Translations under genes and position numbers: made by a program | Shown: positions 15,958-33,304 of the stretch, one piece after another | Layout of the letters: each line of letters begins with the position of its first letter | Position numbering within the stretch: position 1 is the stretch's first letter | The notes under the pieces: generated by a model | Databases searched by the model: none | Told to the model about the DNA's origin: nothing | Seen by the model: only the letters and a program-made list of their open reading frames with translations | From: Ohtaekwangia koreensis | Lineage (GTDB): Bacteria; Bacteroidota; Bacteroidia; Cytophagales; Cyclobacteriaceae | Length of the DNA: 64,000 bases | Assembly (NCBI RefSeq): GCF_900167975.1 | Contig: NZ_FUZU01000005.1 | Span: 377,001-441,000, forward strand | Reading direction: 5' to 3'

Positions 15958-15976
15958 CTACGTCTTCAATACTTCA
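15958..15976 (-). promoter_or_regulatory. Candidate glucan-regulator operator, site D
   Basis: Minus strand reads TGAAGTATTGAAGACGTAG: two half-sites (TGAAGTAT and AGACGTAG) with an 11-bp period, 119 bp before the GH5 start. Three similar direct repeats lie before SusC 1, the second GH5 and SusC 2. This is the most divergent copy. It lies in sequence that would be coding only if regulator 1 began at its first ATG (15919), which favours the later start. Confidence 0.45.
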
Positions 15977-16113
15977 TGAATGGCAGAGCTGCTGAAAATC
16001 AGCCATTTACTTTTAACGGAAGGGAAGCCATGAAAAGTAAGTTGATGAGCATGTTCGCGTGTGTCCGGAGTTTGATAGACCTCATTTATATACGCATATT
16101 GTCTCTTCAGAAA

Positions 16114-19095
16114 ATGCCCACGCTCAGAATTTTATACACCAGAATTTTTTGTCTTGCCCTGATTATAGCAGGTAGCCACCAGGCATTGTGGAGCCAGTCG
16201 ACAGTACCCACACCGTTGGCAGGCGTGCGCGGAATGCCGCGGATCATTCATTATACTAAAAAGGAATTCAATTCTGACCCACAGTTCTGGGCCATGTGCC
16301 AGGATCTACAAGGTGTTTTATACTTTGGGAACAACGATGGTGTGATCATTTTTGATGGAGAGCGATGGCAGCGTGTTGCATTGCCCAACAATTCATCTGT
16401 AAGAAGTTTGCGGATGAATAAAAAAGGTGAAGTATATGCCGGAGGCTTTAACGAGCTGGGCACAATCAAACGGGATGAGTATGGTAAATACTATTATCAA
16501 TCTCTGCTGGATCTTCTCCGCCCGGAAGATCGTAATCTGGAAAACATCTGGCAGATCCATGAAGTGCAAGGGTATATGGTGTTCCGCAGTACGCGCATGC
16601 TGATCGCGATCGCCAATAATAAAGCGATAACATTGCCATCCGCAAATGCTTTTAAATATTGCAATGTTATCAATGACCAGCTTTACGTACAGGATAATGA
16701 AAGGATCAAACTGCTAGACCTGAGTTCCCTTGAATTTATAGACCTCATTCACCAGCGTGAAATAAACTCTGAAGAAATTGTTGCACTTCTTCCAGGTTTT
16801 AAAAAAGAGTCATTGGTGCTCATCACCAAGAAAGGAAGCGCATATACTATAGATCCGCTTACACGAAAGGTAACGTTCAGCAAACGTCTTATTCCGGAGA
16901 ACTCCAGCAACCTTGTGATCTGTGCTATTAAATCTACAAAGGGTACATATTACATGGGCACGCTCAGTACAAAAGTAATTTTATTAGATGCATCCGGTGA
17001 GCACGTAACGACCAGCGAAGCGTTTCAGAATTTACAAGACAACACAGTACTGAACTTATTCGAAAGTCGCGAAGGAAATATATGGGTGTTGCTGAACAAC
17101 GGTATAGATTGTATAGACGTGTCTTCACCCGTTACAATGCTATTTGATAATGCTGCCATCTTTGACGTACTGCCTGTAAAGAAGACGATGTATCTGGCAA
17201 CGAATCAAGGAGTTTTTGTATCGCGTGATGATGCCAATGAAAATAATTTTTCCCGTGCAAGCTTTAACAAGATTGATGGACTGGAAGGGCAGGCGTGGTC
17301 GTTGCAGTTCTTTAAAGAAACGATTCTATGCAGTCACGACAGGGGTATATTTACCATATCTAAAAATGGTGTTCATAAAATACCAGGCATCACCGGTATC
17401 TGGAAGATCATTGAAGTCAAAGGACGCCCAGATGATTTTCTGGTGTGTACCTATGAGGGGCTATATTTACTTCATTACGATGATAATGCAAAAGGATTTA
17501 TACTGCGTCATAAGATAGAGGGCTTCCAGGAATCAAGCCGTGATATTTTACAAAGCAACGAGACCGGTATATTTTGGGTTTGTCATGGTTATAAAGGAGT
17601 ATTCAGAATTAAGGTTGATGAAAGTCTCAGCCGCGTGGTGAGCCTTGAGCATTTTAAAGATCAGAATGGTTTGCCGTCACCGTTTAATATAAATGTATTT
17701 CGCTGGAAAGATGAAACAGTCTTCACGACCAACAAAGGTATATTTACTTTTAATGAAGATGCGAATCGTTTTGAGCCACATCGTTTACTTACAGAATTGT
17801 TTGGCACTGATCGCAATGTGCGGAAATTACTTCAGCGTGATGATAAAACCTGGTTTATTCATGATGATGAAGCCGGGTATTTTTTAACGGATTCACCTAA
17901 ACCTGTTTTGGAAAAAGGACTCTTCCTCAACCTGAAAGGTTCATTTAATCAGAGCATGGAATGCATTGTGCCGTTAAGTGCAGAGAATGTTTTCATGGGC
18001 ACCATCACAGGGCTATATGCTTTTGATCTCACCTATAACCCATCCAAAAGAACATCGGCTAACATGCTGATCATGAAAGTGACGGCACAACAAAAGGACA
18101 ATGAAGTGTTGGGTACGTTGGATGCTTCGCGCGAAGCACGACTTCAGCTTTCGAACAGTACCGGCAGCATTCGTTTTGATTTTGCAGCACCTGATTTCCA
18201 GGACAGGATGAATATACAGTATAGCTATAGGCTGGAAGCTGTGGATGAAAAATGGTCTGACTGGCAGGAAACTCCCTATAAGGAATTTACATACCTCCGT
18301 TCCGGCCGATATGCATTTCATGTTAAGGCGCGAAGCTTACTGGGAGAGAGTTCGCGTGAAGCGGTATACTATTTTGAGATCCTTCCTGCCTGGTATCAAA
18401 CTATATGGGCCTATATAGTATATAGTCTGGCAGCAGTGTTTATTGTAGTGACAATTGCCACGATGGTGAAGCGCAAGATCAACCTTGAGAAACAAAAAAC
18501 ACGTGACGAAGAAGAGAAGAAACGGAAGGTGCTGGAACTAGAAATACAACAGATCAAACTGAAGCAGGAGAAAGAACAGATCATTAAAGATAAAGAGCAA
18601 CTCGAAGAAGACGTTATTCACAAGAGTAAAGAGCTTGCTAATTATACCATGCTCCTGGTAAAAAAACGCGAGTTGCTTTCTGAAATGCTTGATGAGTTGA
18701 AAGGCTTGAAAGAATCTGTGCGCAGCGATGCATCGAAGCAAATTGTGCGTGACCTCATCAAGAAGATAAACGCTAACCTTCAGAATGAAGAACACATCCA
18801 GGTGTTCGAAGCAAACTTTGAGCGTGTACATCACGAATTCTTTGCGCAACTGAAATCGACATTCTCGGATCTTACGCAAAAAGAACTTCAGCTTTGCGCG
18901 TTTGTACGGATGAATCTGACCAACAAAGAAATTGCTTCCATCTTGAATATTTCCGTGCGCGGTGTTGAAACGGCACGGTACCGCCTGCGAAAAAGACTGG
19001 GCATGAGCCATGAACAGGATATGGCAGCCTTCCTCGAAAAACTATATTCATCCAGCGAGCGATCTCCAGCCGATGTTCCGGACGAAACCGTCTGA
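16114..19095 (+). CDS. Membrane one-component regulator 1: propeller, Y_Y_Y, TM, LuxR HTH
   Basis: Transmembrane transcription regulator without kinase or receiver domains. The Met at 16114 starts a good signal peptide (MPTLRILYTRIFCLALIIAG); a frame-opening ATG at 15919 adds 65 residues of non-signal sequence and is rejected. A periplasmic Reg_prop-type beta-propeller fills about residues 35-700 (e.g. EGNIWVLLNNGID), then the Y_Y_Y domain (about 702-745, YSYRLEAVDEKWSDW), one TM helix (about 765-786), a cytoplasmic coiled coil (about 790-850) and a C-terminal LuxR-type HTH (about 919-965, LTNKEIASILNISVRGVET). It is divergent from GH5 and just upstream of SusC 1, so it should sense the glucan breakdown product and activate this locus. 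A paralogue lies at 30.2 kb. Confidence 0.88.
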   Translation: MPTLRILYTRIFCLALIIAGSHQALWSQSTVPTPLAGVRGMPRIIHYTKKEFNSDPQFWAMCQDLQGVLYFGNNDGVIIFDGERWQRVALPNNSSVRSLRMNKKGEVYAGGFNELGTIKRDEYGKYYYQSLLDLLRPEDRNLENIWQIHEVQGYMVFRSTRMLIAIANNKAITLPSANAFKYCNVINDQLYVQDNERIKLLDLSSLEFIDLIHQREINSEEIVALLPGFKKESLVLITKKGSAYTIDPLTRKVTFSKRLIPENSSNLVICAIKSTKGTYYMGTLSTKVILLDASGEHVTTSEAFQNLQDNTVLNLFESREGNIWVLLNNGIDCIDVSSPVTMLFDNAAIFDVLPVKKTMYLATNQGVFVSRDDANENNFSRASFNKIDGLEGQAWSLQFFKETILCSHDRGIFTISKNGVHKIPGITGIWKIIEVKGRPDDFLVCTYEGLYLLHYDDNAKGFILRHKIEGFQESSRDILQSNETGIFWVCHGYKGVFRIKVDESLSRVVSLEHFKDQNGLPSPFNINVFRWKDETVFTTNKGIFTFNEDANRFEPHRLLTELFGTDRNVRKLLQRDDKTWFIHDDEAGYFLTDSPKPVLEKGLFLNLKGSFNQSMECIVPLSAENVFMGTITGLYAFDLTYNPSKRTSANMLIMKVTAQQKDNEVLGTLDASREARLQLSNSTGSIRFDFAAPDFQDRMNIQYSYRLEAVDEKWSDWQETPYKEFTYLRSGRYAFHVKARSLLGESSREAVYYFEILPAWYQTIWAYIVYSLAAVFIVVTIATMVKRKINLEKQKTRDEEEKKRKVLELEIQQIKLKQEKEQIIKDKEQLEEDVIHKSKELANYTMLLVKKRELLSEMLDELKGLKESVRSDASKQIVRDLIKKINANLQNEEHIQVFEANFERVHHEFFAQLKSTFSDLTQKELQLCAFVRMNLTNKEIASILNISVRGVETARYRLRKRLGMSHEQDMAAFLEKLYSSSERSPADVPDETV

Positions 19096-19269: not shown

Positions 19270-19288
19270 TGACGTAGTGCTGACGTGC
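19270..19288 (+). promoter_or_regulatory. Candidate glucan-regulator operator, site A
   Basis: Direct repeat TGACGTAG-TGC-TGACGTGC, 11-bp period, 158 bp before the SusC 1 start and about 65 bp before the candidate -7 element. It closely resembles site B before the second GH5. Confidence 0.55.
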
Positions 19289-19352
19289 TCACATTTTCGG
19301 GTGCAGTAATCGAACCGTAGTCGATTTTTTCATTCACGCATGGTTGTACATA

Positions 19353-19360: not shown

Positions 19361-19445
19361 GTTTAATCCGGAAACGATTTCTGTTTCACTGAAATAGCAA
19401 ACGTATTCGTGACACTTTAACCCAATTAACCTTAATGTTAAACCT

Positions 19446-22400
19446 ATGAGAGAATTTCTACAGAGTGGGAAGCAGATTAAATACTTCCTCATGCTGTGCT
19501 TCGTCATCGCTTGCAGTTATGCACACGCGCAGCAAGTGGTAAGCGGAACAGTAAAGGATGAAAAAACAGGTGAACTGCTGCCTGGTGTGAACGTGGTGTT
19601 GAAAGGAACCAGTACCGGAACCATTTCGGATGGTGACGGAAAATACTCATTGGAGGTTTCTTCTTCCGATGCTATACTGATCTTTTCATTTGTTGGATAT
19701 GCTAAAACAGAAGTGCCAGTAGCAGGAAGAAGTTCCATTGATATACTACTGGCTTCTGATGTATCTACACTAGATGAAGTAGTGGTAGTGGGATACGGAA
19801 CACAAAAGAAAAGTGTAGTGTCCGGATCGATCTCGAGTGTGAAAGCTTCAGACCTGGAGTCTATGCCGATCAACCGTATAGAGCAAGCGTTGCAGGGCCG
19901 GACTTCCGGACTAACCATCGCTGCCAATTCCGGGCAACCGGGTGAAGGCGCAACGGTACGCCTACGGGGTATAACTTCCTTCAACCGCGATGGTGGTGGA
20001 AACAATCAGCCGCTTTGGGTAGTAGATGGTGTGATCATCGACAATGGAGGTATAGGATATCTCAATCAATCCGATATAGAGTCTATTGAAGTGTTGAAAG
20101 ATGCCGCATCACAAGCTATATATGGTGCACGTGCGGCCGCCGGTGTTATACTGGTTACAACCAAAAAAGGAAAAGCCGGTACACTGAAGATGAATTACAA
20201 CGGATACTATGGTATATCTGAACCGGCCCGAAAACTTGACCTGCTGAATGCATCACAATACGCAACACTTCGTAACGAAGCTGCGGCTGCCAATGGCGAC
20301 CCGTTGCCGTATGCAAATCCTGAGTCGTATGGTGAAGGCACAGATTGGCAATCATTGATCTTCAACAAAAGTGCAAAACGTCAGAACCATGAGTTCAGCA
20401 TCAGCGGAGGAAATGAGAAGTCTACCTTCTATACTTCCTTCGGATACTTAAGCCAGGAAGGCATAGTAGCTACAGATATATCGAAGTATAAGCGTTTCAA
20501 TATTCGCCTGAACTCTACACATAAAGCGAAAAAATGGTTAACGATCGGACAAAATCTGGGCTATGCCTATAATAAGTCTATAGGGCTCGGTAATACCAAC
20601 AGTGAATTTGGTGGACCATTGAGTTCAGCAATTAATCTTGATCCTATCACTCCTGCTGTTATTACAGATCCTGCAGTAGCAAGTTTACCGCTATATGCGA
20701 ATAATCCTGTACGCAGAGATGAGAATGGAAATCCGTACGGCATTTCCACTACAGTTGGCCAGGAAATGACAAACCCGCTCGCCTATATTTCAAAACAATT
20801 AGGCAACTATGGCTGGGCACACAACATTATTGGTAACTTCTTTTTGGAAGCAGAACCTGTAACTGGATTGAAGTTCAGATCTACCGTAGGTGCAAAACTT
20901 GCCTTCTATGGTAATGAGTCATTCACACCGGAATATTTCCTGAACTCTTCAAACATTGTTTCGCAGAATTCATTCAGCAGAGAAAATAATACACGCCTCG
21001 ACTGGAACCTGGAGAATACAATTTCCTATACCAGATCCATTGGTGATCATAACGTGACGGCTCTTATAGGCCAAGGCGCATACCTGGATGATAATACGAA
21101 AATGACGCGCGTTACTTTTAATGGTATACCTGCTGATAATTTTGATGACGCTTCCTTTAACTATAAAGTGCCGGCAACGCAACGTACTTCCGATGCTTCC
21201 GAAGGACAAGACCATACCGTGAGCTCGTTGTTCGCGCGCGTGAACTATGACTATAAAGAAAAATACCTGGTGAGCGCATTGGTTCGCAGAGATGGATCAT
21301 CACGCTTTGGACAAAATTACCGCTTCGGTATATTTCCATCGTTCTCTCTGGGATGGGTCCCATCACTGGAGAATTTCTGGATCGAAAACAACGTAGTTAA
21401 TTTCCTGAAGATACGCGGTAGCTATGGCGTTGTAGGGAATGATAACATTGGCAACTTCTCTTTCCTCTCAACGATTGGCAGTGGAAGGAACTATACTATA
21501 GGAACATCAGGAAGTTACCTGAATGGTTTCAGTCCGAATGCACCGGCTAACCCGGATCTGCGTTGGGAAGAAACGACTTCTACCAACATCGGTTTCGAAG
21601 CAACGATCCTGGAAGATTTCACACTTACATTCGACTGGTATAAGAAGGCTACGAAAGATATACTTCAAAACCCACGCATACCTTTTTATGTGGGCGCTAT
21701 ATCCAACCCTGCAGCCAATGTTGCTGATATGGAGAACAGTGGTATAGAACTGGAATTAGGATGGCGTAAACAAGTTGGTGAAGTGAACCTTGGATTCAAT
21801 GGTAACTTCTCTTATCTCAAAAATAAAGTTACGTTTCTCGGCAATGGTATAGAATTCCTCACAGATGGTAATGCCGGTTTCCAGGGAAGTGCCTATAGTA
21901 TAACACGCACTGAAGTAGGTCATACCTATAATTCATTCTATGGATTCCAGACACAAGGTATATTCCAGACACAAGAAGAAATAGAAGCGTATGTTGGTCC
22001 AAAAGGGAAAATTCAGCCCAACGCTCGTCCGGGTGATTTCAGATGGGAAGATATAAATGGTGATGGCGTGATCAATGAGAATGACCGCAAGTTCCTTGGC
22101 AACCCGATGCCTAAATATACTTTCGGATTTACATTGAGTGCTGCCTATAAAGGATTTGATGTTGTATTGTTTGCTCAAGGTGTTGCAGGCAACAAGATCT
22201 TCCAGGGACTAAGACGTTTTGGTATTCCAAGTTCCAACTGGCAGACAGAAGCTCTGGGCAGATGGACAGGTCCTGGGACATCGAATACATATCCTCGGCT
22301 CATAACCAATGATCCGAACAATAACCTGAACAATCCTTCTGATTTCTATTTGAAGAATGGAAATTATTTCCGCATCAAAACACTGCAGATCGGCTATACT

Positions 22401-22589
22401 TTACCGAAGGCTCTGGTTGCCAAGGCAGGTCTTGAGAAAACAAGAATATATGTGATGAGCGAGAACCTCGCAACGTTTACCAAGTATAACGGCTACGACC
22501 CGGAAATTGGTGGAGGCACCATGAGTATAGATCGTGGTATATATCCGCAAGCACGTTCCTTTATGGTGGGTTTAACGGTTGGATTTTAA
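19446..22589 (+). CDS. SusC/RagA-type TonB-linked outer-membrane transporter 1
   Basis: Outer-membrane oligosaccharide importer, TonB-dependent, 1047 residues (typical). Signal peptide to about residue 28 (YAHAQ), CarboxypepD_reg domain at about 31-110 (SGTVKDEKTGELLPGVNVVL), the SusC signature DEVVVVGYGTQ before the plug, the plug at about 120-235 (IEVLKDAASQAIYGARAA), then a 22-strand-type barrel ending FMVGLTVGF. SusD follows after 3 bp, and a PKD lipoprotein after that, forming the uptake core of a glucan locus. Site A and a TAnnTTTG element precede it. Substrate is inferred from neighbouring GH5 and GH3 enzymes. Confidence 0.96.
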   Translation: MREFLQSGKQIKYFLMLCFVIACSYAHAQQVVSGTVKDEKTGELLPGVNVVLKGTSTGTISDGDGKYSLEVSSSDAILIFSFVGYAKTEVPVAGRSSIDILLASDVSTLDEVVVVGYGTQKKSVVSGSISSVKASDLESMPINRIEQALQGRTSGLTIAANSGQPGEGATVRLRGITSFNRDGGGNNQPLWVVDGVIIDNGGIGYLNQSDIESIEVLKDAASQAIYGARAAAGVILVTTKKGKAGTLKMNYNGYYGISEPARKLDLLNASQYATLRNEAAAANGDPLPYANPESYGEGTDWQSLIFNKSAKRQNHEFSISGGNEKSTFYTSFGYLSQEGIVATDISKYKRFNIRLNSTHKAKKWLTIGQNLGYAYNKSIGLGNTNSEFGGPLSSAINLDPITPAVITDPAVASLPLYANNPVRRDENGNPYGISTTVGQEMTNPLAYISKQLGNYGWAHNIIGNFFLEAEPVTGLKFRSTVGAKLAFYGNESFTPEYFLNSSNIVSQNSFSRENNTRLDWNLENTISYTRSIGDHNVTALIGQGAYLDDNTKMTRVTFNGIPADNFDDASFNYKVPATQRTSDASEGQDHTVSSLFARVNYDYKEKYLVSALVRRDGSSRFGQNYRFGIFPSFSLGWVPSLENFWIENNVVNFLKIRGSYGVVGNDNIGNFSFLSTIGSGRNYTIGTSGSYLNGFSPNAPANPDLRWEETTSTNIGFEATILEDFTLTFDWYKKATKDILQNPRIPFYVGAISNPAANVADMENSGIELELGWRKQVGEVNLGFNGNFSYLKNKVTFLGNGIEFLTDGNAGFQGSAYSITRTEVGHTYNSFYGFQTQGIFQTQEEIEAYVGPKGKIQPNARPGDFRWEDINGDGVINENDRKFLGNPMPKYTFGFTLSAAYKGFDVVLFAQGVAGNKIFQGLRRFGIPSSNWQTEALGRWTGPGTSNTYPRLITNDPNNNLNNPSDFYLKNGNYFRIKTLQIGYTLPKALVAKAGLEKTRIYVMSENLATFTKYNGYDPEIGGGTMSIDRGIYPQARSFMVGLTVGF

Positions 22590-22592
22590 ACG

Positions 22593-24143
22593 ATGAAGAA
22601 AAGTATGAAAAGATATATAAAGTATATGGCTGTTATCGCAGTAGCGCTGCAGCCGCTGACATCTTGTAATGATTTTTTGGAAGTAAAGCCCAAAGGTCTT
22701 GACCTCGAAGCAAACTATTATCAAAACCAGCAGCAGGCATTCAATGGTCTGATAGCGGTATACGATGTAGTGGGCTGGCAAGGTGGTAACCTGACTACGA
22801 AAGTTGGTGCTACATCAGCGGCATCCGATGATCACTTGGGTGGAGGTGAAGGAACCGGTGATAAAACATTTACGTCATGGTCTGACTATACGCTTACTCC
22901 AGCGGTTGGTCCTCAGGAAGATCTTTGGAAAAAAGGGTTTTCGGGAATCTTCAGAGCAAATACACTGCTTCAGAAGCTGCCGGATGTACCGATGGACGAA
23001 AGCCTGAAGAAGAGGTATACTGCTGAAGCACTTGTGTTACGCGCTCATTTTTACTTCGATCTGGTTCGTTTGTTTAAAAATATACCACTCTCTACCAAAA
23101 CGATTACGCCTGATGAAATGTATAGTGTAGTACAGGCTGCACCGGAAGAAGTATATGCACAAATTGAACTCGATCTGAAAGCTGCTATTGACGAACCGAA
23201 TCTTCCAAACACCGTTCCGGCAGCAACCGAAGGAGGCCGTATTACAAAAGGCATAGCGCATGCGCTGCTTGGTAAAGTATATGTATACGAGCAGAAGTGG
23301 GCGGAAGCCGCAGCAGAACTTCGCGAAGTTAACGGCGCTACTCCCGGACAGGTAAACCCAACGTATGGCTATAACCTCGTTGCTAATTTTGGCGATCTCT
23401 GGAAATCAACAAGCGATGTTAAGTTTAATAGTGAATCAATTTTCGAAGTAGGCTATACCAGTACATCGGCTGGTGGTTGGGGTTGCATTGCCTGTACAGA
23501 AGGTAATATCCTGAACATCATGGCAGGACCAAGAGGATATACTACTAAAACTGCGAACGCGCCAGACTATATTTCAGGCTGGAGTTATTTCCCGGTAACA
23601 CAAAGTTTATTTGATGCTATTCATTATGATCCACGCTATAAATATACTATAGCAAACCTCGATAGCCTCAAGCAATATGGTATAGCTGACTATACTCCTG
23701 GTGCGCAGAATACAGGTTACTTCCTCGAAAAATTTGCAGGAAGAAAATCAAATACACCAGTGGGTGCAGCGGGTGCGCCAGAATTGAACTACCCACAGAA
23801 TATGTATGAGATCCGATTAGCAGATACATACTTATTGGAAGCCGAAGCACTGGTACGGGGTGGTGGTGATCTCGACAGAGCCGGGCAACTTTTGAATGCA
23901 GTTCGTGCGCGTGTAGGACTCGCTGCTGTTCCTGCAACACTTGAGAATATAAAAACAGAGAGACGCCTAGAGCTTGCAGGTGAAGGACATCGCTGGTTTG
24001 ACCTGGTGCGTTGGGGTGATGCTCCTGCTGCTTTGGGTGACCGCGGATTTGTTGCAGGTAAACATGAGATCTTGCCAATTCCATTAAACGAATTGAACAA
24101 TACGAAACTGGAACAAAGCAAAGAGTACGGTGGCACCAAATAA
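22593..24143 (+). CDS. SusD/RagB-family nutrient-binding lipoprotein 1
   Basis: Surface lipoprotein that caps the SusC barrel and binds glycan. Lipobox LTSC with Cys25, then NDFLEVKPKG. The SusD fold shows the usual landmarks: EALVLRAHFYFDLVRLF (TPR-like helix), ITKGIAHALLGKVYVYEQKW, and the C-terminal IKTERRLELAGEGHRWFDLVRWGD. Length 516 is normal. A Met four codons downstream is an equally plausible start. It lies 3 bp after SusC 1 and 17 bp before the PKD lipoprotein, so the three are one transcript. Confidence 0.96.
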   Translation: MKKSMKRYIKYMAVIAVALQPLTSCNDFLEVKPKGLDLEANYYQNQQQAFNGLIAVYDVVGWQGGNLTTKVGATSAASDDHLGGGEGTGDKTFTSWSDYTLTPAVGPQEDLWKKGFSGIFRANTLLQKLPDVPMDESLKKRYTAEALVLRAHFYFDLVRLFKNIPLSTKTITPDEMYSVVQAAPEEVYAQIELDLKAAIDEPNLPNTVPAATEGGRITKGIAHALLGKVYVYEQKWAEAAAELREVNGATPGQVNPTYGYNLVANFGDLWKSTSDVKFNSESIFEVGYTSTSAGGWGCIACTEGNILNIMAGPRGYTTKTANAPDYISGWSYFPVTQSLFDAIHYDPRYKYTIANLDSLKQYGIADYTPGAQNTGYFLEKFAGRKSNTPVGAAGAPELNYPQNMYEIRLADTYLLEAEALVRGGGDLDRAGQLLNAVRARVGLAAVPATLENIKTERRLELAGEGHRWFDLVRWGDAPAALGDRGFVAGKHEILPIPLNELNNTKLEQSKEYGGTK

Positions 24144-24160
24144 AATCAAAAAAGACAAGT

Positions 24161-25033
24161 ATGAAATTCACGAATAATAAAATGAAGGTATACTCGCTAT
24201 GGTTCAGTATAGTAACGATAGCAGTATTGACAGCATGCCAGCCTGAGGAATTTGAAGATGGCAACGGCTTAAGCGACCCAGGTGTTTCGGCTTCTTTTAC
24301 GATTACACCGGTAGAAGGTAGAAACAACACCTATGTATTCAAGGCAGATCAAACTGATTTGATTGGTGTGCAATGGGACAAAGGTGATGGCGTTGGTTTT
24401 CCAAAAACATTGGGCAAGGCTATAGATACTGTTTTTTATCCGGATGCAGGTATATATAGTATAGCATTGAAAGCTTTCGGAAGAGGGGGAATCTCAGCGG
24501 TTTCTACGCAATCATTCACGGTAGATACGTCCGACCCTGCGGCAGGAAACCTGGTAGTAGGTGGTAAGATGAATGAAGGTGATGAAAGTAAATGGACCTT
24601 TGTAACCTATAATCCCGCAGTTACCTTTGGTATCATGGATGGTAAAATGATTGCCAGCGGTGGAAGCGGTGGCCATGCCGGTATATATCAGACGCTTGAA
24701 GTAGAAGGTGGTAAAAAGTATAAAGTAGATATGAACGTATCCGGAAGCGGTGCTACGGATGTGTGGTTTGAAGTATATGTAGGTACTGCTGCCCCGGTAG
24801 ACGGAAAGGATTACAACGATGGCGGTACACGCCTGGGACTAAATACCTGGGCGGGATGTGGTAAGACTGCATTCAGTGGTAAACTATCATCGCTGTCATG
24901 TGCCGGAACCGGTGGAGGTGTAGTATCATTCCCTGAAAGTGGAACGGTGTATCTTTTCATACGAACAGGTGGTTCCAATTTAGGTACTACTGGTATATCT
25001 ATTGATAACATAGAATTCCGCGGAACAAAGTAA
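24161..25033 (+). CDS. PKD-domain surface glycan-binding lipoprotein (SGBP-like) 1
   Basis: Lipoprotein of 290 residues with lipobox LTAC (Cys26) and an acidic PEEFED stretch after it, typical for surface export in Bacteroidota. A PKD-like domain occupies about residues 40-125 (YSIALKAFGRGG), and the C-terminal ~160 residues form a jelly-roll-like, glycine-rich domain with aromatic residues (YQTLEVEGGKKYKVDMNVSG). No catalytic motif is seen. Position after SusD is where SGBP-B proteins occur, so carbohydrate capture is the inferred role. Its last codons form one arm of a hairpin that includes the stop codon. Confidence 0.78.
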   Translation: MKFTNNKMKVYSLWFSIVTIAVLTACQPEEFEDGNGLSDPGVSASFTITPVEGRNNTYVFKADQTDLIGVQWDKGDGVGFPKTLGKAIDTVFYPDAGIYSIALKAFGRGGISAVSTQSFTVDTSDPAAGNLVVGGKMNEGDESKWTFVTYNPAVTFGIMDGKMIASGGSGGHAGIYQTLEVEGGKKYKVDMNVSGSGATDVWFEVYVGTAAPVDGKDYNDGGTRLGLNTWAGCGKTAFSGKLSSLSCAGTGGGVVSFPESGTVYLFIRTGGSNLGTTGISIDNIEFRGTK

Positions 25034-25069: not shown

Positions 25070-25098
25070 AAAATAACTTCGGTTCCCTTTGCAATTAC

Positions 25099-25125
25099 AA
25101 GCTGCCAGTGTATCATTGGCAGCTT
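25099..25125 (+). terminator. Intrinsic terminator/attenuator between SGBP 1 and GH3
   Basis: AAGCTGCCA (25099-25107) pairs perfectly with TGGCAGCTT (25117-25125) around a 9-nt loop, followed by only a short T-run (GTTTC). It separates the transport genes from GH3, and the weak tail suggests partial read-through. Confidence 0.7.
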
Positions 25126-25185
25126 GTTTCAATTAATAGCTGATCGTAATCCTGACAAGCCTATAAAACTTAACCTGTATAGTAT

Positions 25186-27504
25186 ATGAAAAAAATTATG
25201 GGCACCTGTTGCCTTTCTGTAGTGTTGATCTTTTTATTCCAGGCACAAGCACCTGTTAGACCTGTTCCTATAGATGAAAAGGTGGAAGCGCTGTTAGCGA
25301 AAATGACCCTGGAAGAAAAAGTTGGACAAATGGCACAGGTCACGCTTGATGTCATCACAAAAGGTAAAAATGAATACGTAAGTGATGAGCCACTGCAACT
25401 GGACATGGCGCTCGTAAGAAAAGCACTCGTTGACTATAAACTTGGTTCGGTTCTTAACACCGCCAACAACCGCGCCCGTACTGTAGAGAAATGGCATGAG
25501 ATCATCAGCCAGCTACAGGAAGTCGCAACGAAGGAAACGCGTTTGAAGATTCCGGTGATTTACGGTATAGATGCTATTCATGGAACAACCTATACTGCGG
25601 GCGCTACATTCTTTCCACAGCAGATTGCGCAAGCTGCAACTTGGAATCGCGCGCTGGTAAAACGCGGTGCGGAAATTTGTGCCTATGAAACAAGAGCATC
25701 TTCTATACCCTGGAATTTTTCGCCTGTACTTGACTTGGGGCGTGATGCACGCTTCCCGCGTTTGTGGGAAACCTTCGGTGAAGATGTATACCTTACTTCT
25801 GAACTTGGCAAGCAGATGGTAGATGGATATGAAGGCGAAGGTAATGAAGTAAAAAATCCATACCGTGTAGCGTCTACCATAAAACACTTTCTGGGATACC
25901 AGGTTACGCAGTCTGGCAAAGACAGAACGCCTGCTTTTATACCAGAGCTTGAACTTCGCGAAAGACATATACCTGCCTTTAAAGCTGCGATCGATGCAGG
26001 GGCACGGTCAGTAATGATCAACTCCGGTTTGATCAACGGTATACCTGTACATGCTGACTATACTATCTTGACTAAACTCTTGAAAGAAGAACTTGGTTTC
26101 AAAGGTGTAGCCGTTACAGATTGGAAAGATATAGATAACCTGTATGAACGTGATAAAGTAGCTTCATCTCCGAAGGAAGCTGTGAAGCTTGCAATCAATG
26201 CCGGTATAGATATGTCGATGATCCCCTATAATTTTAAATTCTGTGATTACCTGATTGCATTGGTAAAAGAAGGTGAAGTGCCAATGAGTCGTATCGATGA
26301 TGCTGTGCGCAGGATATTAACCCTGAAGTTCGAACTTGGATTGTTTGAAACACCGGTGACAAACTATAAAGATTATCCGGAGTTTGGGAGCAAAGCTTTT
26401 GAACAATCTGCCTATCAAGCAGCTTCCGAAGCAATAACACTTCTCAAGAATAACAATAGCGTTTTGCCGTTACAGAAAAATGCTAAAATATTGGTCACCG
26501 GACCGAATGCAAATTCAATGCGCGCACTGAATGGTGGCTGGTCTTATTCTTGGCAGGGTGAAAGGGTAAATGAGTTTGCCGGAAAGTATAACACCATTCT
26601 CGAAGCGCTTCAACAAAAAGGTGGTAAAGACAACATCACCTTTGTACAAGGTGTAGCCTATAAAGACGATGGTAAATATTGGGAAGAGAAGGATGTAGAT
26701 ATAGAGGCTGCAGTGAAAGCTGCTGCTAAAGTTGACTATATTATTCTTTGTGCTGGTGAGAATTCATATACCGAGAAGCCAGGGGATCTTCATGATCTCA
26801 CACTTTCTGAAAATCAGTTAGCCTTGGCAAAAGCTTTAATCAAAACAGGCAAGCCCGTTATACTGGTTTTGAACGAAGGCCGCCCGCGCTTGATCAGTTC
26901 TATTGAAAAAGAATTACAAGGCGTTATCCAGTCATACCTGCCTGGAAACTTTGGCGGTGATGCTATAGCGGATGTACTATATGGTAATGTGAATCCAAGT
27001 GGTAAACTTCCCTATACTTATCCGATGTATGCGAATACATTGGTTACCTATGACCACAAGCCATCGGAAGAACAAAATAAAATGCAAGGTGTATATGATT
27101 ATGAATCCGACTTTGCGGTTCAATATCCTTTCGGCTTTGGCTTAAGTTATACTACATTTCAATACAGTGATCTTCAACTTAGCAAGACAACATTATCGCC
27201 TGCTGAAAAAGTTACTATTTCGCTAACGGTAAAGAATACCGGAGCACGTGAAGGTAAAGAAGTGGTACAGCTTTTTATTTCCGATCTCTATGCCTCGGTA
27301 ACACCGGATGTAAAACGACTTCGTGGCTTTGAAAAGATTTCATTGAAGTCTGGTGAATCAAAAAAGGTATCCTTTACAATTGCGGCTCGAGATATAGCGT
27401 TTGTCGCAAAAGATCTGCGATGGACCGTTGAGAAAGGTGACTACGAAGTAAATGTTGGTACATTAAAAAGTAAATTTACATTAAGCGAAGGCAAAACGTT
27501 TTAA
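25186..27504 (+). CDS. GH3 beta-glucosidase
   Basis: Glycoside hydrolase family 3 exo-enzyme of 772 residues, releasing glucose from beta-gluco-oligosaccharides. Signal peptide to about residue 22 (FQAQA) suggests a periplasmic location. The N-terminal barrel has MTLEEKVGQMAQVT, the substrate-binding segment IPVIYGIDAIHG, and the nucleophile D312 in VAVTDWKDIDN. The alpha/beta sandwich follows (SEAITLLKNNNSVLPLQ), then an FN3-like C-terminal domain with YPFGFGLSYTTF. Full length and no disrupted motif. It stands downstream of an attenuator-like terminator after the SusCD-SGBP genes and ends at its own strong terminator. Glucan locus context supports beta-glucosidase over beta-xylosidase. Confidence 0.93.
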   Translation: MKKIMGTCCLSVVLIFLFQAQAPVRPVPIDEKVEALLAKMTLEEKVGQMAQVTLDVITKGKNEYVSDEPLQLDMALVRKALVDYKLGSVLNTANNRARTVEKWHEIISQLQEVATKETRLKIPVIYGIDAIHGTTYTAGATFFPQQIAQAATWNRALVKRGAEICAYETRASSIPWNFSPVLDLGRDARFPRLWETFGEDVYLTSELGKQMVDGYEGEGNEVKNPYRVASTIKHFLGYQVTQSGKDRTPAFIPELELRERHIPAFKAAIDAGARSVMINSGLINGIPVHADYTILTKLLKEELGFKGVAVTDWKDIDNLYERDKVASSPKEAVKLAINAGIDMSMIPYNFKFCDYLIALVKEGEVPMSRIDDAVRRILTLKFELGLFETPVTNYKDYPEFGSKAFEQSAYQAASEAITLLKNNNSVLPLQKNAKILVTGPNANSMRALNGGWSYSWQGERVNEFAGKYNTILEALQQKGGKDNITFVQGVAYKDDGKYWEEKDVDIEAAVKAAAKVDYIILCAGENSYTEKPGDLHDLTLSENQLALAKALIKTGKPVILVLNEGRPRLISSIEKELQGVIQSYLPGNFGGDAIADVLYGNVNPSGKLPYTYPMYANTLVTYDHKPSEEQNKMQGVYDYESDFAVQYPFGFGLSYTTFQYSDLQLSKTTLSPAEKVTISLTVKNTGAREGKEVVQLFISDLYASVTPDVKRLRGFEKISLKSGESKKVSFTIAARDIAFVAKDLRWTVEKGDYEVNVGTLKSKFTLSEGKTF

Positions 27505-27665: not shown

Positions 27666-27684
27666 TGACGTAGTGAGGACGTAT
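27666..27684 (+). promoter_or_regulatory. Candidate glucan-regulator operator, site B
   Basis: Direct repeat TGACGTAG-TGA-GGACGTAT, 11-bp period, 137 bp before the GH5 start. The first half-site is identical to that of site A, so the second GH5 is probably co-regulated with SusC 1 even though it has its own transcript. Confidence 0.55.
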
Positions 27685-27756: not shown

Positions 27757-27793
27757 TGTAAACGTTTGAATTGATACAAAAATGACGTTTACA
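27757..27793. promoter_or_regulatory. Inverted repeat TGTAAACGT ... ACGTTTACA
   Basis: Nine-base perfect arms (27757-27765, 27785-27793) with a 19-base spacer, ending 27 bp before the GH5 start. It could be an operator for a second regulator or a hairpin in the 5' untranslated leader. Confidence 0.4.
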
Positions 27794-27820
27794 CACTTTT
27801 TCATTAAACCCAAATAAACC

Positions 27821-30175
27821 ATGATGCTACAAGTTTTACTGAGGAGAACATTGTTTCTGTTATTGCTGCTGGGCCTTGTACAGGCGAACGCTCAAAGCCG
27901 TCTTCGGGCGGATGGAACACGTATTGTAAATGCTTCCAACCAGGAAGTAATTTTAAAAGGAGTTGGATTGGGAGGATGGCTTTTGCAAGAAGGCTATATG
28001 TTAAATCCGAATAGCGGAGGAACACAAGGATCGTTTAAGAAAAGACTTTACGATCAGGGCCAAACTGAAGCACAGGTAGAAGCTTTCTATCAAAGTTGGC
28101 GTGATAACTTTATTACCCAAGCTGATATTAACTGGATCGCTGATCAGGGATTCAATTGCGTGCGTATCCCTATGCACTACGATTTATTTTTAACGGCTGC
28201 ACAGCGAACAGCACGAAACAACGTGATTCGAAATTCCGGAAACTATACAAACTATATAAATTCATTGACCACGTGGTATAATAACAATCAGCTTTTCGTT
28301 GATCCTAACCTGGAAGGATTCAGAACGCTTGAAAACTGCTTGAACTGGTGTGCTGCACGCGGCATGTATGTCATTGTAGACTTGCACGCTGCTCCTGGAG
28401 CACAGGGAACAGATTCAAATATATCGGATGCTCTTGTCGGTAATGATCTCTGGAACAGAACAATTTTTCAGGACATGACCGTTCGGCTGTGGGAAAAGAT
28501 TGTGTCCCGGTATATAAATAACAACACAGTTGCTTTTTGGGACTTGATCAACGAGCCGAATAACGTTCCTCAAAATCAAAGTATACATGCACTTACGAAT
28601 CGTCTTATCAATGCTATACGTGCTTTAGGTGATACACATTTAATTATGGTGGAAGGAAATGGCTGGGGAAATAATTATGATTACCTGGAGCCCTATACGT
28701 TCACGAACAACTCTAACTTGGTATACAACGCGCACCGCTACTGGATTGCGGAAGGAGATGACTATATCCGTGATGGAAATCCCAACCAGATTAACCGACT
28801 TATAAATCTGACTGAATTCCGAACGCGACATAATGTACCCGTATGGGTTGGTGAGACCGGAGAGAACTCGGATGAATGGCTCCGGCAAAATGTAGACAAG
28901 TTAAATGCAAATGGTATAGGTTGGGCTCACTGGACATACAAGCGAACAAGTTCTTCTGCGAATGCAGCACTACGAAGAATTGTAGGGCCTCCTTATCTCA
29001 CCGATGGTGTATCGGCGATGAGTGGTGTATTGAATAATATAAAGTTTGCAAACACCGTAGTGAATTCCGGGCCGTTAGCGGCTGTTGATCCGAGGCGCGG
29101 AAGTTCTTCATCCTGCTCGGGTAATTATACTTCTGTACCGGCAACCATTCAGGCAGAAGGATATTGTTCAATGAGTGGTATACAAACCGAGACCACTACC
29201 GATACAGGCGGTGGCCAAAATATAGGGTATACCGATGCTGGTGATTGGCTGGGTTTTCGGATTAATGTGCCGACAGCGGGTACCTATACCGTTGAGTATC
29301 GTGTGGCGAGCCAGAGTGGCGGTGGTGCTATACGTCTCGAACAGTTTGGCGGCACTGCCGTGTATGGAACAATCAATGTGCCGGCCACAGGCGGCTGGCA
29401 AACCTGGCAGACTATATCGCATACTGTTCAACTGCCGGCTGGATCGCAAGAGGTAGGTATAGCAATTACTGCCGGAGGATTTAACCTCAACTGGTTTCGG
29501 GTAACGGGCAATAGTACATCTGCACCTATAGGACAAACCATCTGGCTTCGCGGCATCAACAACCTCTATGTGAGCGGAGAGAACGGAACAACAGCAATGA
29601 ACTGCAATCGTCCATCGCCTGGAACCTGGGAACAATTTACTGTAGTGGATGCTGGTGCGGGTAAGATTGCGTTGCGCAGCATGAGTAAATATGTTTCATC
29701 CGAGAATGGAGTTGCTGCCATTACGTGTAGTCGTACCACCATAGGTGATTGGGAGAAATTTGACTGGGTGGTAAATCCTGATGGTAAAGTATCCTTTCGG
29801 GGAAATAATGGAAGATATATATCTTCTGAAAACGGTGCAGCTGCCATGACGTGTTCGCGAACCACTATATCAGGATGGGAGGCCTTTAGTTATGGTACCG
29901 GTTCAGGTGCACGTTCAGCTGCTCCGGAAACTGATACATCGGCACCGGCCGCGGAAACAGATGGTCTTGATATATATCCGAATCCATCGTCGGGTATATT
30001 TACCATACGCGTTTCGAAGCCAGGTACAATAAGTATTATCACAACATCCGGAAAGACCATTCTGAAGTCGGAGGTGAAGGATGTACTGCCTGTAAATAAA
30101 CTTTCATCCGGAATATATATTGTACGAATGAAAACCAACACGCGGATTGTAACGAAGAAAATTGTGGTGGAGTAA
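27821..30175 (+). CDS. T9SS-secreted GH5 with CBM6 and fascin-like domain
   Basis: Secreted 784-residue enzyme. Signal peptide to about residue 25 (VQANAQ); GH5 barrel about 28-420, with acid/base E245 in WDLINEPNN and nucleophile E345 in [14 protein letters not shown]6 domain (about 440-565, [20 protein letters not shown]) follows, then a fascin-like beta-trefoil stretch (about 573-697) built of three repeats beginning SGENG, SSENG and SSENG, each ending in W-E-x-F, and a T9SS sorting tail (from [10 protein letters not shown], about 716). Its catalytic domain resembles the GH5 at 13.1 kb ([23 protein letters not shown]), so the two look like paralogues with different binding modules. Beta-1,3(1,6)-glucan is the inferred target. 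Confidence 0.9.
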
Positions 30176-30200
30176 AACGTCAGTTATACCAGTAATTCAA

Positions 30201-30231: not shown

Positions 30232-30244
30232 AATTTTGCGGACG

Positions 30245-33178
30245 TTAAAAGTTTAGAATAAAATCCTGGAGATTTTTATTTCGATCGAGCTGTATCTTTT
30301 TCCGTAACCTATACCGACTGATTTCCACGCCACGAACGGAGATGTTAAGCAACTGCGCTATTTCCTTCGAGGATAAGTTCATGCGCAAATAGGCACTTAG
30401 TTTTATTTCCTGCGGACTTAAGGTAGGAAACGCTGCTTTAAAGCGATTCGTAAAATCACCATGAACGCGATCGAAGTGAAATTGAAAATGTTCCCAGTCA
30501 GCATCTGCAGAAATATTCTGCTCAATGTTGCGAGTGATTTGTGTCAGTTCTTTTTTTACATCTTCATTTCCGTTTTTCTTGAGTATATGCGCAAGCTGGT
30601 TTTTGATTCCGGTTATAAATTCATTCTTGTTCAGCAGATGCATAGTGGATGTGGCCAGTTCGTTATTCATGTGTTGAAGTTCCGATTCCAGCTTTTCATT
30701 TTGAAGCCGCGTTATTTCTTCATGCGACTGCTGCGAAAGCTTTTCCAACGCGGTATCTTTTTGGTTTAGTTCTTCCTGCTGCTTTTGCTCCAATAGTTTT
30801 TGCTCCCGCTGATATTTGCGGTCCAGTAAATTGAAGCCTGTAAACAGAAGCGCAATGATGGAAATGCCATACACCGAATATGCCCAGACGGAACGATACC
30901 AGGGTGGAAGTATAGTAAATGTGTACGTTGCTTCACGACTGATCTCGCCATTTACATTGCGGGCGTGTACATGGAATATATAGTTGCCTTCTTTTAGATT
31001 GGTATATTCCTTCAATGTTTTGGTATTCCATTCCGACCAATCTTTTTCGTAGTTCTCCAGGTAGTATTGATACGTGAGATCTGCGTTTCCTTCATAAGAT
31101 GTAGCCGCAAATGTAAAATGCATAGAGTTACTTTTGTAAGGTAACTCCGGTTGATATTCCAGCTGTTGTTCTCCGGTGATGGAATCATGCACGCTATAAT
31201 TTCCAAAAAACAGGGTAGAGTCACCGTTGTACGTGGTGCCCACTTTCCGAATCAGCGTCTGGAAGATCAGGGTGCGGTCTGCTTTCATCGTGGGATCATA
31301 GTGAATGAAACCATCCTTGGCTCCGAAGAGCACTTCGTTATTCTGAAGAATAGCTATACTGACCAAGTCATCATTAAGATACTTTCTGATCTTGTTGAAG
31401 ACATTTTCTTCCAATATATATTCTCCCAATGAATTCTTCCGGAACACACCAATGTGATTTTTACTGATGAAATATATATTCCCCATGGCGTCTTCCCGTA
31501 TAAACCAAACCTGATCCGTTTTACCGAGGCGTGTCGAAAAGAAATCATCCGGTATAAATCGATCAGCTTTCGGATCATATTTGTAAACACCACTGGAACT
31601 GGTAAAGAGTAATTCATTCCGCACTTTAAAAACGTTGATCAGTAAATTTGAAGGGAATCCTTTATCCTCGCCATAAAATTTAACACCGGTGATGCTGTCG
31701 AGAGTCGTGCTCAATTTAATTTTATAGGCGCCTTTATAGCCATGCGTAACCCACAGATCGCCAGATGGATCTTGCGCCATAACCCGCGAGGACTCTTCGA
31801 AGCCGCGCAATTTTTTTCGGAACTTCCATTGGCCGTTTACCATATCATATACTTGCAATCCCGCATATACACCTTCGATCAATGTAGCAGGATGATCCTT
31901 CAAAGGATGGAAGATCCAGGAGCCTGGTTCGTAGGAGAGATGCGCCGCACCAGGCTCTTGCAGACGAAGCGCACCATTGTGATGACCGATCAGTAAATTA
32001 TTTGCATACTCACCGATGTGATATACCTGGCCCCGTGTATTGTCGATCAGTTTAAAATCTGACTTTCCATTCTTCTCACGCATATATACTCCGGTATTCG
32101 TACCGAGATATAGCTTGGCGTTGTGCAGGTAAGCGGTATACCCTGATCCGGGCAGACCGATCTGTTTGTTAATGAATGTGAAGGGAGAACCTAACTCAAC
32201 ATACGCTAGCCCGTTGTTTTGTCCTACCCATAAATTGTTGAGATCATCTTCGTATACGCTAAGTACGGTGGTAGTCTCTATACCGCGGCCGCTGGTGAAC
32301 TGTGTGAGTATAGCGCCATCCGGATCCAGTATCAGTAATCCGTTGTTCTGCGTACCTACAGCAAAGTTCCCGTTTCGTAACCGGATCACACAGTTTACGA
32401 TCGATCCCTTGAGGAAAGCCTGCAAGTCTTCCCGCCAAGGCTGAGATATACCTTCACTATATTTATAGATACCTTCCTGGAAAGTTGCAATCAGTAAATG
32501 ATTGTCATGAAGCGGTAATACGGCAGCAATACTCTTTCCTTTATAAAAATCACCGCCTTTTATAAAACGTATATCCTTGCCTTCCAAAACTCCCAGCCCA
32601 ACCGAAGGTTGGTTAACATAGAGTTGACGATTAACCAAAAACGAATGGTCGATGGCGTTTGAAGGCTGGATGATCGTGAACGTATGTTGATCGTACACAT
32701 ATATATTAGTGAACGTACAGAAATACACTTTGTCGTTGTCAATGTAGACGCTCCAGGTCTCATCAAAATTCCTGAATTTCTTTTCAAGACTATCGGCCAG
32801 TGATATGTAGGTGAGCTGACCGCGGTCGTTCGGAAAGAAATAACCGAAGTCACCTTGGCCACCAGCATAAATCCGTCCGCGGCTATCAATGGCCACACTC
32901 CGGACCTTCGTTCCGTTTTTAACGCCGTACACTTGCCATTGGTCTCCGTCAAATTCCAGCAACCCAAAATTGTTGGCGATGTAAACCAGCCCTTGCCGGT
33001 TTTGCGCGATGTCCCAGTTCTGAATGCCGGCTTTGTATTCTATGGGCTGGAAATTTCGCGTAAAGGGAAGTCCGGAAAGTGAGGACTGTGCAAACACCTG
33101 CATGGCCGGAAGAAGCAGAATCCCGGCAAGGAAAATTGAAGTGAGCCAGCGCATCCGGAAAGGTGAGGTCCTGTTCAT
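30245..33178 (-). CDS. Membrane one-component regulator 2: propeller, Y_Y_Y, TM, LuxR HTH
   Basis: Paralogue of regulator 1 with the same order of parts. The start at 33178 (MNRTSPFRMRWLTSIFLAG...) yields a signal peptide ending VFAQ; an ATG at 33223 adds 15 unneeded residues. Beta-propeller about 30-690 (e.g. NNLWVGQNNGLAYVE), Y_Y_Y about 700-745 (YLENYEKDWSEWN), TM about 760-783, coiled coil, and LuxR HTH about 926-972 (LSSKEIAQLLNISVRGVEI). No kinase or receiver. It is divergent from SusC 2, with the direct repeats of site C between them, so it most likely controls locus 2 and possibly itself. Its recognition helix differs from that of regulator 1 at only a few positions. Confidence 0.88.
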   Translation of the reverse strand: MNRTSPFRMRWLTSIFLAGILLLPAMQVFAQSSLSGLPFTRNFQPIEYKAGIQNWDIAQNRQGLVYIANNFGLLEFDGDQWQVYGVKNGTKVRSVAIDSRGRIYAGGQGDFGYFFPNDRGQLTYISLADSLEKKFRNFDETWSVYIDNDKVYFCTFTNIYVYDQHTFTIIQPSNAIDHSFLVNRQLYVNQPSVGLGVLEGKDIRFIKGGDFYKGKSIAAVLPLHDNHLLIATFQEGIYKYSEGISQPWREDLQAFLKGSIVNCVIRLRNGNFAVGTQNNGLLILDPDGAILTQFTSGRGIETTTVLSVYEDDLNNLWVGQNNGLAYVELGSPFTFINKQIGLPGSGYTAYLHNAKLYLGTNTGVYMREKNGKSDFKLIDNTRGQVYHIGEYANNLLIGHHNGALRLQEPGAAHLSYEPGSWIFHPLKDHPATLIEGVYAGLQVYDMVNGQWKFRKKLRGFEESSRVMAQDPSGDLWVTHGYKGAYKIKLSTTLDSITGVKFYGEDKGFPSNLLINVFKVRNELLFTSSSGVYKYDPKADRFIPDDFFSTRLGKTDQVWFIREDAMGNIYFISKNHIGVFRKNSLGEYILEENVFNKIRKYLNDDLVSIAILQNNEVLFGAKDGFIHYDPTMKADRTLIFQTLIRKVGTTYNGDSTLFFGNYSVHDSITGEQQLEYQPELPYKSNSMHFTFAATSYEGNADLTYQYYLENYEKDWSEWNTKTLKEYTNLKEGNYIFHVHARNVNGEISREATYTFTILPPWYRSVWAYSVYGISIIALLFTGFNLLDRKYQREQKLLEQKQQEELNQKDTALEKLSQQSHEEITRLQNEKLESELQHMNNELATSTMHLLNKNEFITGIKNQLAHILKKNGNEDVKKELTQITRNIEQNISADADWEHFQFHFDRVHGDFTNRFKAAFPTLSPQEIKLSAYLRMNLSSKEIAQLLNISVRGVEISRYRLRKKIQLDRNKNLQDFILNF

Positions 33179-33262
33179 GATGAGGTTAAGGAGCATTGAT
33201 GTTGTGTCAAATCTAATTACCAAATCGTTTGAAATCCACTGAAATTAATGTTTCTGCTTTGT

Positions 33263-33304
33263 TGATGTAGTTTTGATGTAGCCTTAACGGCCCACCTGAT
33301 GTAG
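33263..33304 (+). promoter_or_regulatory. Candidate glucan-regulator operator, site C (three copies)
   Basis: TGATGTAG occurs at 33263-33270, 33274-33281 (11-bp period) and 33297-33304 (23 bp further), between regulator 2 and SusC 2. Sites A and B have TGACGTAG, so a C-to-T change in the half-site separates the two loci. Confidence 0.6.

Follow-up and report, generated by a model that had tools for sequence, protein, structure and literature searches.

Direct repeats spaced by one helical turn look like operators of LuxR-type sensor-regulators at beta-glucan loci of environmental Bacteroidota

The window, a stretch of 64,000 nucleotides from the 7.24-Mb genome of Ohtaekwangia koreensis (contig NZ_FUZU01000005.1, positions 377,001 to 441,000), carries a neighbourhood that, judged by enzyme family, is of the beta-glucan type. 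It comprises two SusC/SusD gene sets, two genes for GH5 enzymes and the genes of two regulators, R1 and R2 (Table 1). Upstream of both SusC genes and both GH5 genes, two GANGTA-like half-sites are located head to tail. These four direct repeats, designated A to D, are the subject of this study. They had been noticed in a reading of the letters alone, in the following the sequence-only reading, which described an exact 11-bp period, a third half-site at C and a distance of about 120-160 bp to a SusC or GH5 start. This observation was confirmed: All four sites are present, the half-site period is 11 bp in each of them, and between site end and called start 158 bp (A), 137 bp (B), 149 bp (C) and 119 bp (D) were measured. 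The third half-site of C (33297-33304) is a perfect TGATGTAG, and operator C is kept in R2 orthologues, named relatives included. Site D overlaps the R1 frame as called from 15919. Since relatives' matches to this frame start between approximately residues 45 and 112 and a signal-peptide-like stretch is located further in, the true R1 start is probably at 16030 or later, so that D would be intergenic. The sequence-only reading also proposed that R1 and R2 bind the repeats. Enrichment of the repeat beside regulator homologues and its presence upstream of xylulokinase fusions support this proposal, and we consider it very probable that A to D are operators of R1 and R2, which would be membrane sensor-regulators.

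Two paralogous regulators with a LuxR-type helix-turn-helix (HTH) had been assigned to these loci, and the domain search bears this out. R1 and R2 are 29-30% identical, and both contain Reg_prop and Y_Y_Y domains above the Pfam cut-off. The Pfam GerE domain reaches 28.6 bits in R1 (cut-off 23.5) and 22.6 bits, just below it, in R2. A histidine kinase, a receiver or an AraC HTH was found in neither protein (Pfam, E <= 0.001). The domain order fits a periplasmic sensor, a membrane span, which was judged by eye only, and a cytoplasmic HTH. The cytoplasmic part of R2 (203 residues) was modelled with a mean pLDDT (predicted local distance difference test) of 91.5. In the model, one long helix coming from the membrane side is followed by a helical bundle that ends in a NarL/LuxR-type HTH. 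The closest single domains are those of DosR, VraR, LiaR and NarL, on which the model superposes over approximately 60 residues (Foldseek; no E below 0.03). A sequence search of solved structures with the R2 C-terminus yielded no match.

Table 1. Repeats, palindromes, regulators and candidate targets. L numbers denote stretches outside the window, G numbers genomes; HTH, helix-turn-helix; T9SS, type IX secretion system.
Feature	Position	Strand	Remarks
Operator A	19270..19288	+	TGACGTAG-TGC-TGACGTGC, before SusC1; R1-type centre base C
Degenerate second doublet of A	19302..19320	+	offset +32, 8/12; weak
Operator B	27666..27684	+	TGACGTAG-TGA-GGACGTAT, before GH5/CBM6; without clear second doublet
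Operator C	33263..33281	+	TGATGTAG-TTT-TGATGTAG, between R2 and SusC2
Second, half-degenerate doublet of C	33297..33315	+	offset +34, 9/12
Operator D	15958..15976	-	TGAAGTAT-TGA-AGACGTAG, between GH5a and R1
Second doublet of D	15925..15943	-	TGATGTAT-TTT-AGATGTAT, offset +33, 11/12, as good as the first; missed by the sequence-only reading
LacI-like palindrome AATCGTTT/AAACGATT	15870..15877		downstream of D, offset 99
LacI-like palindrome AAACGATT	19372..19379		downstream of A, offset 102
LacI-like palindrome AAACGTTT	27760..27767		downstream of B, offset 94
LacI-like palindrome AAACGTTT	33366..33373		downstream of C, offset 103
R1, sensor-regulator (propeller, Y_Y_Y, LuxR-type HTH)	16030..19095	+	frame called from 15919
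R1 LuxR (GerE) HTH	18871..19029	+	recognition stretch SVRGVETARYRLRKR
R2, paralogous regulator (propeller, Y_Y_Y, LuxR-type HTH)	30245..33223	-
R2 LuxR (GerE) HTH	30284..30424	-	recognition stretch SVRGVEISRYRLRKK
Target of D: GH5 with CBM6/CBM35 and T9SS tail (GH5a)	13062..15839	-	Pfam
Targets of A: SusC1, SusD1, 290-aa protein, GH3	19446..27504	+	operon inferred
Target of B: GH5 with CBM6 and T9SS tail	27821..30175	+	Pfam
Targets of C: SusC2, SusD2, PKD protein, two GH16	33430..41490	+	operon inferred
Unlinked GH16 with T9SS tail behind intergenic site	L173:9739-12512		own genome; R2-type halves and palindrome
Unlinked GH18 gene, then GH16 gene, both with T9SS tails	L174:6240-9635		own genome; R1-type halves
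Xylulokinase-LuxR fusions	L259-L265		genomes G036, G072, G112, G124, G068, G002, G007

R1 and R2 were searched in 148 genomes from within the family, and stretches of up to 20 kb were taken around 74 homologues, which together with the window yielded 75 loci. In their intergenic DNA, every 6-mer with more than two kinds of letters that recurs at a given period was counted. Among periods 7 to 45, the most widespread repeated word is TGATGT at period 11 (32/75 loci). Overlapping words aside, it is followed by TGATGT at period 33 (17 loci) and 44 (10 loci); period 22 (6 loci) is listed, too. At periods 46 to 95, no repeated word occurs in more than 3 of the 75 loci. When six more stretches of the own genome were added (81 stretches), intergenic GANGTA pairs were counted 45 times at period 11 versus 0-4 times at periods 6-10 and 12-21, with further peaks at 22/23 bp (10 and 7 pairs) and 33/34 bp (17 and 10 pairs). 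The peaks at 22/23, 33/34 and 44 bp support a helical phasing of the half-sites, in line with the earlier suggestion that they lie head to tail on one face of the DNA.

The repeat has a defined place and direction. A score of at least 11 of 12 is reached by 59 of 75 regulator-side promoters (scored without the short stretch L128), compared to 0.4% of 1,500 shuffles. All strong doublets (59/59) are directed away from the regulator and toward its neighbour. Counted by gene, 58 of 76 upstream stretches of the regulators themselves contain a doublet, and none of these points in the direction of the regulator. In the same loci, a doublet precedes 47 of 53 adjacent SusC genes and 5 of 7 adjacent GH5a genes, but only 2 of 13 distant SusC genes, 4 of 84 adjacent unrelated genes and 2 of 462 distant unrelated genes. 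This means, the repeat is strongly enriched upstream of homologous loci over shuffled as well as over unrelated intergenic DNA, the two comparisons that the sequence-only reading had asked for. In 14 loci from named records, which partly overlap the genomes of the 75-locus set, a 12/12 doublet points away from the R2 homologue in nine, among them Chryseolinea lacunae, Chryseolinea serpens, Parachryseolinea silvisoli and Dawidia soli. Two of the five loci without such a doublet hold hardly any upstream DNA. Within the window, 9 matches to TGANGTAN5GANGTA with at most one mismatch contrast with 1.23 on average, and never more than 4, in 100 dinucleotide shuffles. Four of the 8 exact matches in the genome are found inside the window (nominal binomial 4e-7), two of them from promoter D alone; site A itself carries one mismatch. 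Outside the window, the exact matches in L172 and L175 lie within coding sequence and those in L173 and L174 are intergenic.

In a scan of all 148 genomes, TGATGTAN4TGATGTA was found at 95 places in 62 of them. An R2 match (E <= 1e-90) is present in 91 genomes, a number to which some propeller proteins contribute whose match does not reach into the HTH. The pattern occurs in 54 of these 91 versus 8 of the 57 genomes without R2 match. Sorted by hand, 42 places belong to R2-type loci and 53 lie elsewhere. Although intergenic DNA makes up 12% of the latter loci, 35 of the 53 off-locus places are intergenic according to the gene caller. The reversed pattern (23 places by hand sum, vs 95) was considered as a measure of the chance level and discarded: Read backwards, the pattern is ATGTAGTN4ATGTAGT, which is contained in the operator TGATGTAGTATTGATGTAGT, and 22 of the 23 reversed places are in genomes that have the forward pattern, too. 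Thirty downstream genes were scanned for domains, 29 of them behind intergenic places and one in L209, whose site sits in a 152-aa frame judged spurious. Among the 25 of 41 domain families listed, the type IX secretion system (T9SS) tail was found 12 times, CBM35 11, GH16 6, CBM6 5 and CBM4_9 4 times, GH3, SusE and a sugar transporter twice each, and GH5, GH30, GH64, GH81 and a putative glucoamylase once each. One photolyase-like, one OmpA and one sulfatase gene do not fit the glucan theme. By their predicted domains, the genes behind off-locus sites thus appear to encode largely carbohydrate-active or T9SS proteins.

To compare the sites, 50 R2-type and 10 R1-type promoters were aligned on their strong doublet. 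The consensus is TGATGTAG-TAT-TGATGTAG for the R2 type and TGAAGTAG-Tat-TGAcGTAg for the R1 type. T occupies the centre of 89 of 100 R2 half-sites versus 4 of 20 R1 half-sites; the remaining R1 half-sites have A (8) or C (8) there. The recognition stretches read mostly RG-V/I-E-I-S/A-RYRLRK in R2 (VETA in one row) and RG-V/I-E-T-A-RYR in R1. A second doublet (at least 9/12) is most common at +33 (11/60), followed by -33 (6), +34 (4) and +36 (4), where the +36 count is in part owed to the same letters read in a shifted register. At R1 loci, the second doublet tends toward GGTGTA-N5-GTGTA. Many promoters therefore have only one strong doublet. A frequent layout of the operator is an array in which 11-bp doublets follow one another at 33-34 bp. 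Full arrays with four strong half-sites at 0, 11, 33/34 and 44/45 are found at L211:5009-5060, L247:4993-5044 and L129:4008-4060. Of the single half-site pair described in the sequence-only reading, the 11-bp doublet has stood; its singleness has not, as two doublets per promoter are frequent.

A domain swap provides a separate line of evidence. Some TGACGTA doublets directly precede genes for FGGY kinases, best matched to xylulokinase, that are fused to the same C-terminal module. Seven full-length fusions are encoded in the 148 genomes. Each of them (7/7, four found via the motif) is preceded by a doublet in the direction of the gene, which starts 20-106 bp before the kinase match. Six doublets score 11-12 of 12, and that of L265 scores 10 with TGGCGTA halves. 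As controls, 23 module-free xylulokinase-like genes were inspected, and none has a doublet in its direction within 1.5 kb; in L277, the opposite strand has a 10/12 match at a distance of 766 bp. In G072, a second TGACGTA doublet precedes a GH43 gene (L252) that is approximately 10 kb away from the fusion, as expected of a pentose regulon. The fusion is apparently a sugar kinase that would act as its own transcription factor, and a literature search for such a kinase-HTH fusion found no report.

The domain swap supports the assignment of the operator to the HTH module, as far as predicted proteins and their promoters permit. Alternatively, another factor that controls glucan loci might bind the repeat, with the propeller-Y_Y_Y-LuxR genes as mere neighbours. 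Binding of the repeat by the regulators is, after all, a prediction from sequence, and a second conserved element of these promoters, the palindrome discussed below, suggests more than one factor. The operator, however, tracks the HTH module and not the substrate, is far more common in genomes with an R2 match and differs in its centre base between R1 and R2 loci, which makes another factor quite improbable. The centre base bears on a further point. The sequence-only reading had assumed one repeat common to both regulators. It is indeed found at the loci of both, but R2 probably favours GATGTA and R1 mostly GAMGTA, so that one operator would not be shared equally. Should both paralogues read the same operator indiscriminately, C/A versus T would reflect drift. 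Such a lack of discrimination agrees with the small difference between the recognition stretches (VET-A vs VEI-S/A) and with GATGTA in some R1 loci (L108, second doublet of D). The unequal share of T in the half-sites of the two types speaks against it, as do the fusions: Their recognition stretches are RG-V/I-E-T-R/K-RYR, R1-like in VET, and C occupies the centre of 14/14 half-sites, although four fusions were picked from TGACGTA pairs. Drift is, thus, a doubtful explanation, albeit one with some weight.

Several observations weigh against the operator assignment or narrow its range. A doublet of 11/12 is missing in 16 of the 75 regulator promoters. Among these are three R2-like regulators with a GH5 neighbour (L165, L166 and L168, 35-37% identical to R2) that have no doublet upstream, with 8/12 as best score; this clade may use another operator. 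Likewise, no doublet of at least 11/12 was found at 13 loci of other R1 relatives in the own genome. Ten of these relatives are long proteins with a propeller; the other three (L042, L043, L045) are shorter and end in a similar module. Hence, not every relative of the module is accompanied by the operator. Among the off-locus places, 18 of 53 lie within coding sequence and are read as background. Four of the seven fusions were found via the motif itself and, of the rest, L262 and L263 belong to one genus, so that the independent confirmations number two. A consistent -33/-7 core promoter (TAnnTTTG) at a fixed distance was not detected. P values are nominal and related genomes are not independent, and the simple gene caller misplaces some starts. 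Finally, with at most one mismatch, the motif is not enriched genome-wide (140 matches vs 182 for the reversed pattern); hence, the signal consists in position and context and not in raw counts. This last comparison speaks for the view that AT-rich intergenic DNA yields such repeats by accident or composition bias. The position, orientation, spacing and shuffle controls leave a practically negligible probability for chance.

Outside the family, only a minority of the stretches examined has the exact doublet, which likewise restricts the assignment. Of 395 genomes taken from the class, 57 encode an R2-type protein (E <= 1e-120). Approximately 1 kb upstream of 40 R2-type places was examined, with one stretch of only 130 bp. 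An exact TGANGTA doublet at period 11 is found in only 7 of these 40 and absent from 33; no other period exceeds three. Six of the seven doublets are TGATGTA/TGATGTA (one each in families f4, f5, f7 and f64, two in f37); that of f53 reads TGAAGTA/TGATGTA. In family f13 (L312, L317, L318), the halves have drifted to TGTAGTAG or TGTTGTAG and the 11-bp period is kept; here, spacing appears better conserved than letters. No doublet of 11/12 was found in the upstream stretches examined from families f42 and f55, whose homologues may use another operator or layout.

The genes in L173 and L174 are putative unlinked members of the R1/R2 regulon. The pairing of a chitinase and a glucanase in L174 hints at the fungal cell wall. 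In the window, genes for GH67, a LacI regulator, GH115 and GH10 are lined up next to each other at 42466-50322; judged by enzyme family, this is a separate glucuronoxylan-type locus.

A second element, the palindrome AAACGWTT, follows the doublet in each of the four window promoters at an offset of 94-103 bp. Within 200 bp downstream of the doublet it is present in 25 of the 60 aligned promoters, compared to an intergenic background of 0.37 per kb. In 10 of these 25 it is found at +103/+104 (including L119-L122 and L127-L131), in 4 at +70, i.e. 104 minus 34 (L125, L126, L135, L136), and in 4 at +145 to +148 (L142, L143, L144, L148), where it may partly lie past the SusC start. The unlinked GH16 promoter in L173 has it at +101. 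Only 4 of 45 off-locus intergenic sites possess the palindrome. Its sequence suggests an additional LacI-type repressor input. The LacI gene of the window (44669-45703) was considered as palindrome reader and dropped, as no BLAST relative was found in the other stretches.

From these data, the following mechanism is proposed. The periplasmic propeller and the Y_Y_Y domain would sense an oligosaccharide of beta-glucan, and a long coiled coil in the cytoplasm would pass the signal on to the NarL/LuxR-type HTH, which would bind DNA. Each HTH would read one TGANGTAG half-site, and a doublet would consist of two such half-sites in head-to-tail order with an 11-bp period. With a second doublet 33-34 bp away, up to four half-sites would lie on one face of the DNA, and such an array could accommodate two membrane-tethered dimers. 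Binding of glucan in the periplasm might alter the coiled coil such that a pair of HTHs occupies one doublet, head to tail, ahead of the promoter. Since the site is located upstream of its target and points to it, the bound regulator most likely recruits RNA polymerase, i.e. activates. The palindrome approximately 100 bp further on could add a LacI-type repressor as second input. A preference of R1 for GACGTA/GAAGTA and of R2 for GATGTA would result in separable beta-glucan regulons.

The case for activation is an indirect one, made up of orientation and upstream position, and this has to be held against it. The doublet could instead be a repressor or silencer site at which the membrane regulator keeps the promoter off until glucan is sensed. 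The distance between doublet and called start varies from 17 to 377 bp in the 60 promoters (median 101 bp); it amounts to 95-160 bp in 26 of them, is shorter in 27 and longer in 7. Therefore, distance alone does not prove activation, and the 27 near sites would suit a repressor. By contrast, all strong cases have the same orientation toward the target, and the palindrome, where present, is usually located between doublet and start, which fits an upstream activator combined with a separate repressor. Repression by R1 and R2 is, thus, improbable, if a little less so than binding by another factor. There may be a broader scheme, towards which we lean, though only just: a portable cassette of approximately 150 residues, composed of coiled coil and LuxR HTH, that carries its own operator code (tandem TGANGTAG at an 11-bp period) and in Bacteroidota has been joined to membrane propeller sensors for beta-glucans as well as to a cytosolic xylulokinase, which would thereby become its own transcription factor. 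The centre base would sort sub-regulons, and the palindrome would add a second input.

Proteins with propeller, Y_Y_Y and LuxR domains adjoin glucan loci in many environmental Bacteroidota. The helical-turn-spaced repeats look like the switch sites of this common, uncharted class of sugar-sensing regulators. With a defined site, regulons including unlinked secreted enzymes become predictable from sequence. The cases described here point to a single circuit that would serve glucans of the laminarin type and perhaps those of fungal walls. With the xylulokinase fusion, nature offers a test of how HTH module and operator move together. If true, the portable cassette would allow a whole family of polysaccharide utilization locus (PUL) circuits to be decoded from sequence.

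In agreement with the sequence-only reading, no operator for the propeller-Y_Y_Y-LuxR class was found in the open-access literature. The HTH of R1 and R2 resembles the NarL/FixJ/LuxR-type domains of DosR, VraR, LiaR and NarL in the fold of the model (weak E-values) and in the GerE match. Unlike these, it is fused to a propeller sensor and lacks a receiver. Inverted sites are frequent in the NarL/FixJ/LuxR class, from which the 11-bp direct repeats differ. Head-to-tail half-sites at an 11-bp period are known from the pho box of PhoB, an OmpR-type winged HTH protein with another consensus. Footprints of MilO, a LuxR-family activator from Streptoverticillium, cover tandem direct repeats that lie upstream of a promoter, according to the available part of the report (PMC11784345). 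In contrast to the sites described here, these repeats, three of 11 bp each, are separated by 2-bp spacers (13-bp period) and have another consensus, and the sensor of MilO is unrelated. Going by this account, a LuxR-family HTH is able to bind tandem direct repeats. As far as the accessible text of three further papers goes, PMC12125979 and PMC5698469 deal with the AraC-type regulators XylRA and CgrA, respectively, and PMC13188888 names LuxR only as the first gene of laminarin PULs.

The nearest study concerns SusR-like regulators and hybrid two-component systems (HTCS) (Ravcheev et al., 2013; PMC3878776), and the following comparison refers to the accessible part of its text. Like SusR of Bacteroides, R1 and R2 would be membrane-bound one-protein regulators of a SusC/SusD PUL with predicted direct repeats on one face of the DNA, and they share with SusR-like regulators a gene adjoining SusC/SusD and glycan genes. 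For SusR-like regulators, direct repeats at a distance of 67 or 77 bp were predicted, and their DNA-binding domain is described there as not significantly similar to any other known one. By this description, R1 and R2 differ from SusR in their HTH, which matches Pfam GerE, and in their putative operators, 11-bp doublets that often follow one another at 33-34 bp; in the 75 loci, word peaks were found at 11, 33, 44 and 22 bp and not at the SusR-type spacing. HTCS combine a COG3292 propeller sensor with helix-phased tandem direct repeats of 21 bp on average (PMC3878776, same part). R1 and R2 resemble them in the two-component-regulator propeller with Y_Y_Y sensor and in the helix-phased tandem repeats, and differ from them in the lack of histidine kinase, receiver and AraC HTH. 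Taken together, the system of R1 and R2 combines the propeller sensor of HTCS, the one-protein layout of SusR, a LuxR-type HTH and an 11-bp doublet.

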